Source: Bacteroidota bacterium | GTDB lineage: Bacteria; Bacteroidota; Bacteroidia; UKL13-3 | Assembly (NCBI GenBank): GCA_947477885.1 | Contig: CANJUD010000009.1 | Location: forward strand, 1 to 64,000 | Length of the DNA stretch: 64,000 nt | Direction: 5' to 3' | Shown: piece after piece, positions 10,295-41,659 of the stretch | Position numbering within the stretch: the stretch's first letter is position 1 | Layout of the letters: every line of letters starts with the position of its first letter | Position numbers and translations under genes: made by a program | The notes under the pieces: model-generated | Databases searched by the model: none | Seen by the model: only the letters and a program-made list of their open reading frames with translations | What the model was told of the DNA's origin: nothing

Positions 10295-12262
10295 ATGAAA
10301 TTAATTTACTTTTTAACTTTTTTGCTGTTTGCTAATATATTATTGGCAGCCCCAGGTGATACCACCCATGTACAGTTCCATTATAAAACCAATTTGAACT
10401 GGTATGGGAATTATGATTTTAAAGGTGCCTTCCCAGCGGCAGGTAAATCGTGGAATAAGATTATGATGCGATACACTATGGGCTGTTCCTCAAGTGGCTG
10501 TTCAGGTTGGGATTATACTACCCATATCCAATATCTGAAACCAACAGGTACTATGGATTCCAATATTGCAGCCATTGACACAGTAAAAAAAGATACTACT
10601 TGGAATGTATATGAAGTAATTGAAAAATTTGAAATGGCCAGGGTAATCACACCTTATGGAACCTATATGAATGCTGGTAGTAATGGCTATAATAACAACT
10701 GGAGGCAAGCCCATTGGTATGATGTTACCGATTTTGTTTCTTTATTGCACGACTCATCCACTTTAAGGGCTTTCTATTCAGGATGGAGCAGTGGCTATAG
10801 TTGTACTTTAGATTTTTATTTCATTGAAGGCACACCGCCACGTCCAGTTTTATCCATTCAAAATGTTTGGGGAAAAGGCGGCAACAGCTATGGGTATGGC
10901 AAAAGCATTGATTTTGAAACCAATGTGATGCCACCCAAAAAAGTATTTATATTGCCTACTACCAAATCGGCTAAAATGACTTTTGTTCCTTCGGGCCACG
11001 GATTTGATAATTCGCAAACAGCTGCAGAGTTTTATGATGAAGCATTTGATGTAAAAGTGAACAATACTAAAATAGCCAATGACCATATATGGAACGATCA
11101 ATGCGGTCAAAACCCTGTGTTCCCGCAAGGTGGCACCTGGGTATATAATAGAGCCAACTGGTGCCCGGGTACCAAAGTAGGTGTGTTTAGTTACGAGATT
11201 GGCCCTAGTTTGCAAGCCGATACCAATACTTTGGATATAGACTTTGAACCTTATACCTGGTCAGGAAATCAAGTACCTAGCTATACAATTAGTTCAATGC
11301 TATACCAATATGGCAATTATCAATATACCAACGAAGCTTCCATCGAAGATATTATTTCACCTTCAAAGGATTCTAATTATATCAGGCTGAACCCTATTTG
11401 TTCAAATCCTGTAATCTCTATTAAAAACTACGGCAAAGACGATTTAACATCCTTGCAAATAAGCTATGGGCTTGCGGGCAATAGCAAACAAGTATACCAA
11501 TGGATCGGAAAAATAAAATTCGGTGAAACGCAAACCGTCAATCTACCATTCCTCAATTGGACAGGCGTAACCAAAACCAGTGTTTTTGAAGTAGTGATAG
11601 ATAAACCCAATGGAAAAACTGACGAACTAAATTATAATAACAGCCGAAGTTCAGGCGTATTACTTACGCAAAAACTTGATAACAAACTAGTAGTTTGGTT
11701 TAAAACAAATAACAATCCTGCAGAAAACACCTACTATTTTAAAGACGCTTACGGCAATATCCTGTTTTCAAAATCAGGATTCCCTGCTGCTACACTTATT
11801 AAAGATACCTTTACTTTGCCTGATGGCTGCATCAGTTTTGAACTTACCGATGATGGCAATGATGGAATTGATTGGTGGGCTAATAACAAAACCGCTGGCA
11901 GTGGATATCTTTGGATAAGAAACCTTTCAGGAACCTTCACCAAAAAAATCAATCCCGACTTCGGCAACAAAATAGTTTACAGGTTTAATACTACTTACGG
12001 GCTGCCTGTTGAAGAACAGAATGTAAATGATTTCAACTTCGACATTTACCCCAATCCCGCCAAAAGCTTTTTCACGATAGCTTCCCAAAGACTTAATGCC
12101 AATGCACAAGTTCAGATTTTTGACCTCGCAGGCAAACTTATAACTAACACCCAATTTGCGAATACTATCACCATAAACAGCGAGGGTTGGCACAAAGGAT
12201 TATATTTTGTACGGATTGAACAACAAGGTTCTGTTGCTACTTACAAAGTAGTGGTTGAATAA
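10295..12262 (+). CDS. PNGase F-related exported protein with T9SS sorting domain
   Basis: A 655-residue protein with a signal peptide (MKLIYFLTFLLFANILLAA). Residues about 45-320 resemble the two-domain fold of flavobacterial peptide-N-glycosidase F, which removes N-glycans from glycoproteins: GCSGWDYTTHIQYLK aligns with the CDEWDRYANVYVK region, ARVITPYGT with RFITPYW, and NRANWCPGTKVGV with DRAGWCPG. By that alignment, made by eye, the PNGase F residues Asp60 and Glu206 correspond to Asp73 and Glu245, but Glu118 corresponds to Ser162. Activity is therefore uncertain. The C-terminus (FDIYPNPAKSFF through GLYFVRIEQQGS) is a T9SS sorting domain, so the protein should be surface bound or secreted. 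Confidence 0.82.
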   Translation: MKLIYFLTFLLFANILLAAPGDTTHVQFHYKTNLNWYGNYDFKGAFPAAGKSWNKIMMRYTMGCSSSGCSGWDYTTHIQYLKPTGTMDSNIAAIDTVKKDTTWNVYEVIEKFEMARVITPYGTYMNAGSNGYNNNWRQAHWYDVTDFVSLLHDSSTLRAFYSGWSSGYSCTLDFYFIEGTPPRPVLSIQNVWGKGGNSYGYGKSIDFETNVMPPKKVFILPTTKSAKMTFVPSGHGFDNSQTAAEFYDEAFDVKVNNTKIANDHIWNDQCGQNPVFPQGGTWVYNRANWCPGTKVGVFSYEIGPSLQADTNTLDIDFEPYTWSGNQVPSYTISSMLYQYGNYQYTNEASIEDIISPSKDSNYIRLNPICSNPVISIKNYGKDDLTSLQISYGLAGNSKQVYQWIGKIKFGETQTVNLPFLNWTGVTKTSVFEVVIDKPNGKTDELNYNNSRSSGVLLTQKLDNKLVVWFKTNNNPAENTYYFKDAYGNILFSKSGFPAATLIKDTFTLPDGCISFELTDDGNDGIDWWANNKTAGSGYLWIRNLSGTFTKKINPDFGNKIVYRFNTTYGLPVEEQNVNDFNFDIYPNPAKSFFTIASQRLNANAQVQIFDLAGKLITNTQFANTITINSEGWHKGLYFVRIEQQGSVATYKVVVE

Positions 12263-28737: not shown

Positions 28738-28992
28738 ATGGCAAAAAATACTTCAATCCTTTTAGGAGACTATTTTGACAGGCTTATTAACCAACAAATT
28801 CAAACAGGGCGATTTTCATCAGCAAGTGAAGTTGTAAGGGCTGCGTTGCGACTTTTTGAGCAAGAGGAAAGTAAGAAGATCGAGCTTATTAAAGAACTTA
28901 AAACAGGTGAGAAATCTGGTTTTGTAAAAAAGTTTGACCGAGGGGAATTTATCAAAAACCTTCATAAGAAACATATAGCTGATGAACTATAA
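28738..28992 (+). CDS. ParD/RHH-type antitoxin
   Basis: An 84-residue protein with the CopG/ParD ribbon-helix-helix pattern: MAKNTSILLGDYFDRLINQQ, then GRFSSASEVVRAALRLFEQEE, which is the hallmark of ParD antitoxins. The C-terminal half is charged and would wrap the toxin. It overlaps the toxin gene by 11 bases. Antitoxins of this type bind the promoter of their own operon and repress it together with the toxin. Confidence 0.92.
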   Translation: MAKNTSILLGDYFDRLINQQIQTGRFSSASEVVRAALRLFEQEESKKIELIKELKTGEKSGFVKKFDRGEFIKNLHKKHIADEL

Positions 28993-29281
28993 AATTAGTG
29001 TAAAAGCCGCTGAAGACCTAGAAAATATCTGGCTTTATACTTTTGAACATTGGTCGCTTGAGCAGGCAGACAGATATTTAAACCTTATTATAGATGAAAT
29101 AGAATACCTAGCTGAAAAGCCAGAAATTGGAAACGACCTTGCACACATCAGAAAAAATTACAAATGTTCTAAAGTAAAATCGCACATTGTCTTTTATAGA
29201 AAAATTGAAAAGCAAAACGAAATAGAAATCATCAGAGTTTTACACCAACGTATGGATATTGAAAACCGATTAAATGACTGA
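28982..29281 (+). CDS. ParE/RelE-superfamily toxin
   Basis: A 99-residue protein with the ParE fold pattern: ISVKAAEDLENIWLYTFEHWSLEQADRYL-type helices, EIGNDLAHIRKNYKCSKVKSHIVFYRK and the terminal EIEIIRVLHQRMDIENRL. ParE toxins poison DNA gyrase, while RelE relatives cleave mRNA; the ParD partner favours ParE. Start and antitoxin stop overlap, the usual coupling for this module. The pair sits among a gene remnant and repeats, which fits horizontal arrival. Confidence 0.92.
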   Translation: MNYKISVKAAEDLENIWLYTFEHWSLEQADRYLNLIIDEIEYLAEKPEIGNDLAHIRKNYKCSKVKSHIVFYRKIEKQNEIEIIRVLHQRMDIENRLND

Positions 29282-29410: not shown

Positions 29411-30451
29411 TTACCCCTTATTCGCCAACTGCCCGCAAGCTGCATCAATATCCTTCCCCCTGCTTCTGCGAAGATTTACTATAAGTTTTTTACTTTCCAA
29501 ATGTCGTACAAAAGCATTCAATCTTTGTTCGCTGGATTTTTGGAACAGGCCATCGCCGATGGAATTGTATTCTATCAGATTTATTTTGGTGGGGAATTTT
29601 CGGGCAAAGGCTGCAAGCTCGTTTGCATCTTCTATACTGTCATTAAACTTGTCAAAAACTATATATTCTAAGGTTGGTCGTGTTCCAGTTTTATTATAGA
29701 AATAACTTAATGCTTCTTCTAAAGTTGCCAATGTATTACTTTCATTAATCGGCATAATTTCATCACGCTTTCTATCATTGGCAGCATGGAGTGATAAAGC
29801 TAGATTAAATTTGGCTCCATCATCGGCAAGTTTTACAATCATTTTTGAAATGCCTGCTGTAGAAACTGTAATACGTTGTGGCGACATGCCCAACCCATCA
29901 GGACTGGTAATCATCTCAATACTTTTCATCACATTGCTATAGTTGAGCAATGGTTCGCCCATGCCCATATATACAATATTGCTCAGCGGTATATTATAAT
30001 GTTCTTCCGATTGTTTTTTAATTAATGCAACCTGGTCAAAAATTTCATAATGATCGATGTTGCGTTTGCGTTCCATTTTGCCCGTCGCACAAAATTTACA
30101 AGACAAACTACATCCAACTTGGCTACTGATGCAGGCCGTCATTCTGCTTTCGGTAGGAATTAAAACACCTTCTACAAAATATCCATCGTGCAATCGGAAA
30201 GCAGATTTAATAGTTCTATCATTACTTATTTGTTTGTGGTCGACTACTACAGGGTGAATAGGATAAGTAACCTCGAGCCAAGTACGAGTGGCAAGTGATA
30301 GGTTACTCATTTCATCATAAGTAGCAGCTTGCTTTTGCCATAGCCATTCATACAATTGTTTTGCACGAAATTTGGGCTCACCTTTCTCTAAGAATAATTG
30401 TTGTAATTCTTCTAATGAAAAGGTGCGAATATTTTTTCCGTGGGTAAACAT
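29411..30451 (-). CDS. rlmN: 23S rRNA (adenine2503-C2)-methyltransferase RlmN
   Basis: A 346-residue radical SAM enzyme. The cluster-binding CxxxCxxC is Cys114, Cys118, Cys121 in VGCSLSCKFCATG. The GMGEPLLNY motif and SLHAANDRKRDEIMPIN are typical, and the C-terminal catalytic Cys339 is in IDAACGQL. It methylates A2503 of 23S rRNA (and A37 of some tRNAs). The start codon abuts a 27-unit repeat array on its upstream side, so its promoter must lie in or beyond that array. Confidence 0.96.
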   Translation of the reverse strand: MFTHGKNIRTFSLEELQQLFLEKGEPKFRAKQLYEWLWQKQAATYDEMSNLSLATRTWLEVTYPIHPVVVDHKQISNDRTIKSAFRLHDGYFVEGVLIPTESRMTACISSQVGCSLSCKFCATGKMERKRNIDHYEIFDQVALIKKQSEEHYNIPLSNIVYMGMGEPLLNYSNVMKSIEMITSPDGLGMSPQRITVSTAGISKMIVKLADDGAKFNLALSLHAANDRKRDEIMPINESNTLATLEEALSYFYNKTGTRPTLEYIVFDKFNDSIEDANELAAFARKFPTKINLIEYNSIGDGLFQKSSEQRLNAFVRHLESKKLIVNLRRSRGKDIDAACGQLANKG

Positions 30452-30462
30452 GTTTTAGTAGT

Positions 30463-30651
30463 CAGTAAACAGTGGTCAGTAAACAGTAGTCAGTAAACAG
30501 TAGTCAGTAAACAGTGGTCAGTAATCAGTGGTCAGTAGTCAGTGGTCAGTAAACAGTGGTCAGTAATCAGTGGTCAGTAATCAGTGGTCAGTAGTCAGTG
30601 GTCAGTAAACAGTGGTCAGTAGTCAGTAGTCAGTGGTCAGTGGTCAGTGGT
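30463..30651. repeat. Array of 27 heptads CAGTnnn
   Basis: Twenty-seven consecutive 7-base units, every one CAGT followed by AAA, GGT, AGT or AAT, run without a single indel. AAA/AAT/AGT and GGT units often alternate. The array is followed by a 40-base spacer and a short inverted copy (30695-30728) whose reverse complement again reads CAGTAGTCAGTAAAC, so the whole can fold into a hairpin. It lies between divergent-side neighbours rlmN (starts 30451) and the transketolase gene (stop 30724). Confidence 0.95.
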
Positions 30652-30723
30652 CAGTGCCATACGGCAGAAAACATAGTGTGTTAGCCTGTGCGTAACTGAC
30701 TACCGTTTACTGACTACTGATTA

Positions 30724-31677
30724 CTATAATTTTCTTGCCATTACCTTTTTACAGGCTTCTATAATATTTTCTTTTTCGAGTCCGTATTTTTTCATGAGTT
30801 GTTCGGGGGTTCCGCTTTCGCCGAAGCTGTCGTTTACGGCAACCATTTCAGCTGGTCTGGGATTATTGAATGCTAATAATTGGCAAATACTATCGCCTAA
30901 TCCGCCATTGCGTTGGTGTTCTTCGGCAGTTACTAAACAACCTGTTTTGGCAACGGATTGCAGTACAGCTTCATTGTCCAAAGGTTTGATAGTATGTATA
31001 TTTATTAATTCTGCATCGATGCCTAGTTCCGCTAATATTTGAACTGCTTCAATCGCTTTCCAAACCAAATGACCGGTAGCAAAAATGCTTACGTCTTTCC
31101 CATCTTTTATTTTCCAAGCTTTTCCAATTTCAAATTTTTGTTCGGCTGGCCAAAAGTTGGGAACTACTGGGCGACCAAAACGTAAATATACTGGTCCTTC
31201 ATAATTGGCAATGGCCAGCGTCGCTGCTTTTGTTTGGTTGTAATCACAGGGATTTATCACGGTCATGCCTGGCAACATTTTCATGAGTCCGATATCTTCC
31301 AATATTTGATGCGTTGCACCATCTTCGCCCAAGGTAAGCCCGGCATGCGATGCACAAATTTTTACATTTTTGCCCGAGTATGCTACCGATTGACGAATTT
31401 GATCGTACACACGACCTGTACTAAAGTTTGCAAAAGTTCCAGTGAATGGAATTTTGCCCCCAATAGTTAAGCCAGCGGCGATGCCTATCATATTAGCTTC
31501 AGCAATTCCAACTTGTATAAAACGGTTTGGGAATTCATTTTGGAAAGCATCCATTTTGAGCGACCCAGTGAGATCGGCACACAGTGCAACGATGTTTTCA
31601 TTAAGTCGGCCAGCCTCTAAAAGTCCAGCACCAAAACCTGAGCGTGTGTCTTTGTTATCAATAACTTGTGGTAGCAT
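30724..31677 (-). CDS. Transketolase, C-terminal subunit
   Basis: A 317-residue protein containing the pyrimidine-binding domain (GFGAGLLEAGRLNENIVALCAD; the catalytic Glu in FIQVGIAEANMIGIAAGL) and the C-terminal domain (ISIFATGHLVWKA-like strand, VTAEEHQRNGGLGDSI, FGESGTPEQLMKKYGL). It corresponds to the second half of a full transketolase, as in archaea and many Bacteroidota with split enzymes. The thiamine-diphosphate domain half must be encoded elsewhere: the next gene upstream runs in the opposite direction. With its partner it would transfer two-carbon units in the pentose phosphate pathway. Confidence 0.9.
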   Translation of the reverse strand: MLPQVIDNKDTRSGFGAGLLEAGRLNENIVALCADLTGSLKMDAFQNEFPNRFIQVGIAEANMIGIAAGLTIGGKIPFTGTFANFSTGRVYDQIRQSVAYSGKNVKICASHAGLTLGEDGATHQILEDIGLMKMLPGMTVINPCDYNQTKAATLAIANYEGPVYLRFGRPVVPNFWPAEQKFEIGKAWKIKDGKDVSIFATGHLVWKAIEAVQILAELGIDAELINIHTIKPLDNEAVLQSVAKTGCLVTAEEHQRNGGLGDSICQLLAFNNPRPAEMVAVNDSFGESGTPEQLMKKYGLEKENIIEACKKVMARKL

Positions 31678-41560: not shown

Positions 41561-41624
41561 GGTTGTATGTATTTTTTGGGTTGTATATCATGAAGGAAGG
41601 ATTGGTAAATGGGGGAATAGTAAA

Positions 41625-41659
41625 CAGTGGTCAGTAATCAGTAGTCAGTGGCTGACGCA
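41625..41659. repeat. Four CAGTnnn heptads plus AGTGGCTGACGCA core
   Basis: CAGTGGT, CAGTAAT, CAGTAGT and CAGTGGC follow one another (41625-41652), then TGACGCA. These are the same unit and vocabulary as the 27-heptad array at 30463-30651, and the core also occurs at 21813-21825. Confidence 0.8.

Follow-up and report, generated by a model that had tools for sequence, protein, structure and literature searches.

The run of CAGTNNN heptads between the transketolase and rlmN genes of a Bacteroidota bacterium is probably an over-extended arm belonging to a non-coding palindromic repeat that is dispersed in the genome; its copies lie between genes and are built of about four 7-bp units per arm around a hairpin core. 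Elements of this family are found at many gene borders of the genome, the arm described here is expanded compared to the same border in sister species, and at several shared borders one heptad has been exchanged for another in both arms. We consider it probable that such copies spread, lengthen by slippage and are rewritten from one another. The stretch analysed, hereafter the window, consists of the first 64,000 nucleotides of contig CANJUD010000009.1. Its relevant features are as follows.

29411-30451, minus strand: rlmN (TIGR00048, 367.8 bits for a cut-off of 290).
30456-30655, plus strand: expanded left arm, TAGTAGT followed by 27 CAGTNNN and a final CAGT (29 heads); at most 5 units per arm at this place in sister species G001 and G002.
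30652-30694, plus strand: core and spacer, in which a poorly conserved spacer follows the REP-like hairpin GCCATACGGC (30656-30665).
30695-30726, minus strand: right (inverted) arm of five heads, one of them imperfect (CGGT), with TAGT at its outer end.
30724-30726, minus strand: TAG with which the transketolase C-terminal gene stops, contained in the outer TAGT of the element; same in G001 and G002.
30724-31677, minus strand: transketolase C-terminal-domain gene (best match NCBIfam PRK05899.2-5, 276.9 bits, below the full-length cut-off).
41618-41658, plus strand: truncated element of the family, a five-head left arm and core tag GGCTGACGC without right arm.

The initial annotation had reported 27 perfect heptads with four suffixes and no frameshift, and this is exact: positions 30463-30651 hold 27 CAGTNNN units with zero frame slips, the suffixes being GGT (12), AGT (6, or 7 if the TAGTAGT unit at 30456 is included), AAA (6) and AAT (3). 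The true array is longer, as it opens with this TAGTAGT and closes with a CAGT head at 30652-30655, whose GCC “suffix” is in fact the opening of the core GCCATACGGC. Among 100 simulated 64-kb sequences (first-order Markov, composition of the window), the longest chain of CAGT heptads had 3 heads, versus 28 observed. The array is non-coding, as had been stated, because TAA and TAG recur in it. Its inverted partner is real as well, since the reverse complement of 30695-30726 reads TAGTAAT CAGTAGT CAGTAAA CGGTAGT CAGT. The initial description, of one array accompanied by a short arm, holds for the array, but the actual unit is a palindrome organised around a conserved core; this element spans 30456-30726 (271 bases), and the 27 copies form its expanded left arm. 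It was correctly placed between the rlmN start and the transketolase stop: 4 bases lie between the rlmN start (30451, minus strand) and the left edge of the element, and the transketolase TAG falls inside the right arm. No TAnnTTTG promoter motif was found within the element, and Rfam gave zero matches at gathering score over the 64 kb window. We also observed that a complete parDE toxin-antitoxin pair (PF03693, PF05016; window 28738-29281) adjoins rlmN, and that the genome has a second RlmN-like gene (G000:C16:25930-26958), 62% identical to the one in the window; two such genes are present in both sister species too.

Searching the whole genome for further arrays, as had been suggested, was fruitful: chains of four heads gave 328 + 248 matches, versus 57 + 93 in the reversed control. 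About 1 Mb of the genome was then read, and 48 two-armed inverted elements (9 in the reversed control) were counted in these 994 kb, a density that is biased upward because the stretches were picked mostly for core or array matches. The same stretches contain 62 left-hand and 63 right-hand arms, which make up these 48 pairs and a remainder of single arms. The most frequent arm has five heads, TAGT(NNNCAGT)4, that is, four heptads (64 of 125 arms); 21 of the 125 are long, with 7 to 80 heads, and the overall range is 3 to 80. In short arms, T is the first base of 62 of 90 outer heads and of 27 of 338 inner ones, and the suffixes AGT (303), GGT (176), AAA (142) and AAT (133) make up most of the 849 units. 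The hairpin core flanked by the arms is GCCATWCGGCGTCAGC, with a 3-bp GCC/GGC stem and a loop ATWC, followed by GTC. Allowing at most 2 mismatches, CAGTGCCATACGGC has 67 copies in the genome (10 in the reversed control). The core tag GGCGTCAGC was counted 61 times (0 reversed). The smallest complete element, of about 81 bp, reads TAGT(NNNCAGT)4, a 17-bp core and (ACTGNNN)4ACTA, the commonest form of this core being GSCTGACGCCGWATGGC (reverse complement GCCATWCGGCGTCAGSC).

Gene context was derived from simple ORF calls, by which some 90% of the sequence is coding. Of 75 arrays with usable context, 74 lay outside ORFs, at 51 tandem, 15 convergent and 8 divergent borders. Divergent borders were less represented than in the background (8/74 versus 96/512), a trend only (p=0.10). 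Many elements occupy the whole gap from the stop of one gene to the start of the next, and in 16 places, transketolase included, the TAG of the element is itself the stop of the flanking gene. Among stops abutting an element, TAG was found in 20 of 41 cases, versus 163 of 764 overall (p=0.0002). Around 25 intact elements, we saw no duplicated target sequence longer than a possible TA. One element is located directly upstream of the tmRNA gene (L036 1613-1988).

The initial annotation had raised the possibility of a slippage-prone switch of rlmN expression, that is, phase variation through changes in array length. The 28 tandem heads situated 4 bases from the rlmN start, and the variation of their number among species, would suit such a role. 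However, dozens of unrelated borders carry the same element, including one beside tmRNA, the array is outside the reading frame, and rlmN is a housekeeping gene. Nothing links the array to the rlmN frame or promoter, and we regard a phase-variation switch as very improbable. If the element is transcribed with its neighbours, it would appear in the tkt-rlmN transcript as a long RNA hairpin separating the two coding parts; its effect on rlmN is expected to be mild at most, not that of a designed switch.

CAGT is not the only heptad head associated with the core. Arms made of AAGGNNT, ACATCGT, TTAATGG and GGATTCR were found beside it: GGCGTCAGC also adjoins AAGGNNT, ACATCGT/AAATCGT and CATTAAC arms, and GCCATACGGC is found between GGATTCR arms in the same genome. 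Strong period-7 regions number 40 in the genome, of which 16 are of a non-CAGT type; periods 4-6, 8-11 and 13 gave 0. Within short arms, adjacent identical units were scarce (23 observed versus 35.7 expected). In several long arrays identical units two apart were in excess (52 versus 19.6 expected in an array of 66 units), and repetition by 14-bp steps was seen in several of them. Expansion in 7- and 14-bp steps is what local polymerase slippage would produce, and work cited by PMC4679880 and PMC4692102 identifies heptads as a preferred unit of slippage in the genomes of bacteria. Slippage alone, with no dispersing element, is nevertheless contradicted as a full account by the recurrence of a common core and of common unit sets at unrelated borders, and is most improbable.

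We next compared these borders with those of two sister species of the same genus, G001 (MAG JANYDJ01, whose record is labelled Flavobacteriaceae) and G002. The tkt-rlmN element is present in all three species, with no more than 5 units per arm in G001 and G002. The 28-head array is therefore an expansion in the present lineage, and the amplifying repeat that had been put forward as one reading of the array is borne out. Over 65 orthologous spacers comparable between species, a period-7 signal was found in 16 here and 11 in the relatives, for 0 to 1 with periods 5, 6, 8 and 9. Recognisable arms were absent from the relative at several borders (e.g. L212:12338, L232:13854, L201:6784). As the compared species are only about 80-90% identical in DNA, no empty site was resolved to the base.

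At other borders an element was present in both species, with different heptads. At L193:7114, both arms change from CAGT to AAGG in L249, and the core variant GGCGTTAGC is common to both. At L204:5978, CAGT is replaced by AAGG in L250, with the outer TAGTAAT unit and the suffix order GGT-AAT-AGT retained. CAGT becomes TAGT at L193:6441 (compared to L249) and TAGTCGT at L195:6656. In these four cases the other heptad occupies both arms, while the core between them, and its orientation, are common to both species. At L200:14676, CAGT is replaced by GAGT in L162, where the core is unrecognisable. The shared core variant GGCGTTAGC leads us to favour inheritance followed by rewriting of the arms over fresh insertion; slippage of copies does not by itself explain the exchange of a heptad in both arms. 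The retained outer units, at a few sites, suggest that rewriting may reach outward from the core. Alternatively, it may be that the stop codon contained in the outer unit holds it in place.

The arms had been predicted to form a long hairpin, and RNA folding agrees: z was −4.7 for the 271-base element, −7 to −12 for six intact elements of this genome, and −3.4 and −6.1 for two switched elements of sister species. Exact complementary runs were longer between native arms (16.0) than between swapped arms (13.8), a difference reached in 5 of 5000 permutations. Duplex energy was no better for native than for swapped arms, so complementarity beyond the heads is partial: some elements do have this additional pairing, and others have lost it. 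When scored in a fixed register from the core or from the outer end, unit-for-unit pairing appeared depleted, a result that we replaced because folding shows a shift by one heptad in several elements. An intrinsic terminator was also considered and is not favoured: in most listed elements the right flank is A-rich, not T-rich, so that on the strand being read the hairpin is not followed by a run of T.

These folds, together with the way elements fill stop-to-start gaps, could point to a conserved regulatory hairpin or protein-binding site kept by selection at gene ends. The arms would then covary because pairing is needed, and they do change jointly at shared borders (CAGT/ACTG, TAGT/ACTA, AAGG/CCTT, GAGT/ACTC). 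Selection for a hairpin or for a binding protein could thus be what keeps both arms in step. Against this, presence of the element differs among close relatives, the number of heads goes from 3 to 80, core orientation is about even (21 versus 19), and no shared gene class was apparent in the borders read, on a non-statistical inspection. We hold this explanation to be rather unlikely.

A REPIN-type element would also be palindromic, intergenic, dispersed and without clear target duplication; it would be mobilised by a REP-associated tyrosine (Y1) transposase of the host genome. The genome does contain four Y1 genes, one of which scores above the RAYT cut-off (102.8 versus 80). However, none of the four has an arm or a core within 1.5 kb; G002, which is 96% complete, has 14 two-armed pattern matches and zero Y1 genes; and relatives within the bacterial family that have 10-15 Y1 genes have none or nearly none of the elements. 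A Y1 transposase is therefore not needed, and mobilisation by such an enzyme appears distinctly unlikely. No mobilising enzyme was found; the search for a transposon with TAGTNNNCAGT ends, as a MITE would require, covered the Y1 family.

We thus favour, as the probable history, a dispersed palindromic repeat whose copies would spread as hairpin DNA, would be tolerated at gene borders only, where they often provide the TAG stop of the upstream gene, and would then be inherited. Arms would lengthen through slippage in 7- and 14-bp steps, and recombination or gene conversion between copies, with the common core as anchor, would replace their inner units. In a bolder version of the last step, the core would be recognised by a machinery dedicated to copying or recombination, and other copies would serve it as source for rewriting the 7-bp units of the two arms; each lineage would then have a heptad “dialect” of its own at inherited sites. 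We think this unlikely; if true, core-directed rewriting would be a bacterial counterpart of the concerted evolution of satellite DNA, with a unit length fixed at seven.

Among 396 Bacteroidia genomes, two inverted CAGT arms were detected in 57. The strongest two-armed counts were those of this genome (93, control 3) and of G035, from another family (64, control 0), whose arms have other suffixes and lack this core. The junction of CAGT with the core, CAGTRGCTGACGC, was enriched only in this genome (11 + 11) among the 396, a sample without the two sister species, which also carry it. Elsewhere it gave at most 4 matches, near background; we therefore dropped it as a class-wide signature, and do not press a match in G323, a member of another family. 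In the named genome collection, the exact core pattern was found at 3 loci of the sister MAG JANYDJ01 and as isolated matches in unrelated genomes, where heptad arms were absent at the five matches inspected.

Intergenic heptads are known from Xanthomonas, cyanobacteria and Beggiatoaceae, with no agreed cause. The nearest counterparts known are heptamers of the GGGNATC class in Xanthomonas and Nostoc. As described by Rehm et al. 2015 (PMC4692102), the units are GGGNATC (GGGAATC) in Xanthomonas and GGGGAYT in Nostoc, with a preference for four units and tails of up to 26; 89-93% are intergenic. Most of these lie between aligned ORFs, close to stop codons or overlapping them, and few are at divergent borders. 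The same paper reports 70-75 convergent inverted pairs per Xanthomonas genome, no link to insertion sequences, and borders shared by sister species with differing lengths; the repeats are read there as quadruplex formers, and the four units are tied to quadruplexes. The 7-bp unit, four-unit mode, inverted pairs, intergenic position, stop-codon overlap and variation of length among sister species are all found in our element. Unlike those heptamers, its units (CAGT followed by AGT, GGT, AAA or AAT) have no G-tracts of three and cannot form quadruplexes, and to it belong a conserved hairpin core, several unrelated heptads per core and in-place swaps between species. Because the main unit is not G-rich, the four-unit preference seen here cannot rest on G-quadruplexes, and the same anatomy with such units argues against the quadruplex account of this preference.

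In MacGregor 2015 (PMC4679880), TAACTGA heptads are described in Beggiatoaceae, cyanobacteria and five Bacteroidetes as intergenic tandems of up to 43 copies, direct repeats (one indirect, in the BOGUAY genome) lying mostly just upstream of starts. They resemble ours in being intergenic heptad tandems, and their reverse complement, TCAGTTA, is a CAGTTAT-type heptad; they differ in that no core or inverted-arm anatomy is described for them. In what is accessible of these two papers, we found no mention of a shared core, of more than one heptad per core or of in-place switching of arms. Our search of the open-access literature on cyanobacterial short tandem heptads found no description of their anatomy. 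REP and REPIN-RAYT systems are likewise dispersed, intergenic, hairpin-capable and non-coding palindromes, but do not have arms of heptad tandems or variable arm length, and the present element does not depend on a Y1 enzyme. CGTC-tagged REPs (PMC3733652) have an 8-9 bp stem, a 4-5 nt loop, CGTC at one end and a CCA tail, with no known transposase. A short palindrome followed by CGTC is also present in our core (GGCGTC), whereas its stem is 3 bp and the CCA tail is missing; heptad arms are not described for CGTC REPs. A core with interchangeable heptads that are switched in place offers a direct test of spread, expansion and rewriting.

Some further repeats were noted in or near these elements. 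A second palindrome, TCCCGATANNTATCGGGA or close variants, is nested in the cores of L185, L193, L225, L230 and L233 (12 matches on both strands, 0 reversed). In stretches of G002, including L096, palindromes CCCGCCGCGGCGGG lie within or between heptad arms, and CCGCCGCGGCGG was counted 22 times in 279 kb of that genome (0 reversed), both strands being counted, so that a palindrome counts twice. Finally, L194 contains at about 11830-12150 (plus strand) tandem 78-bp units comprising GGCGTCAGC and CCAGGTGGTTGGTCACAAGACACAACCACAGGC, and a similar motif adjoins other elements (L201, L240).
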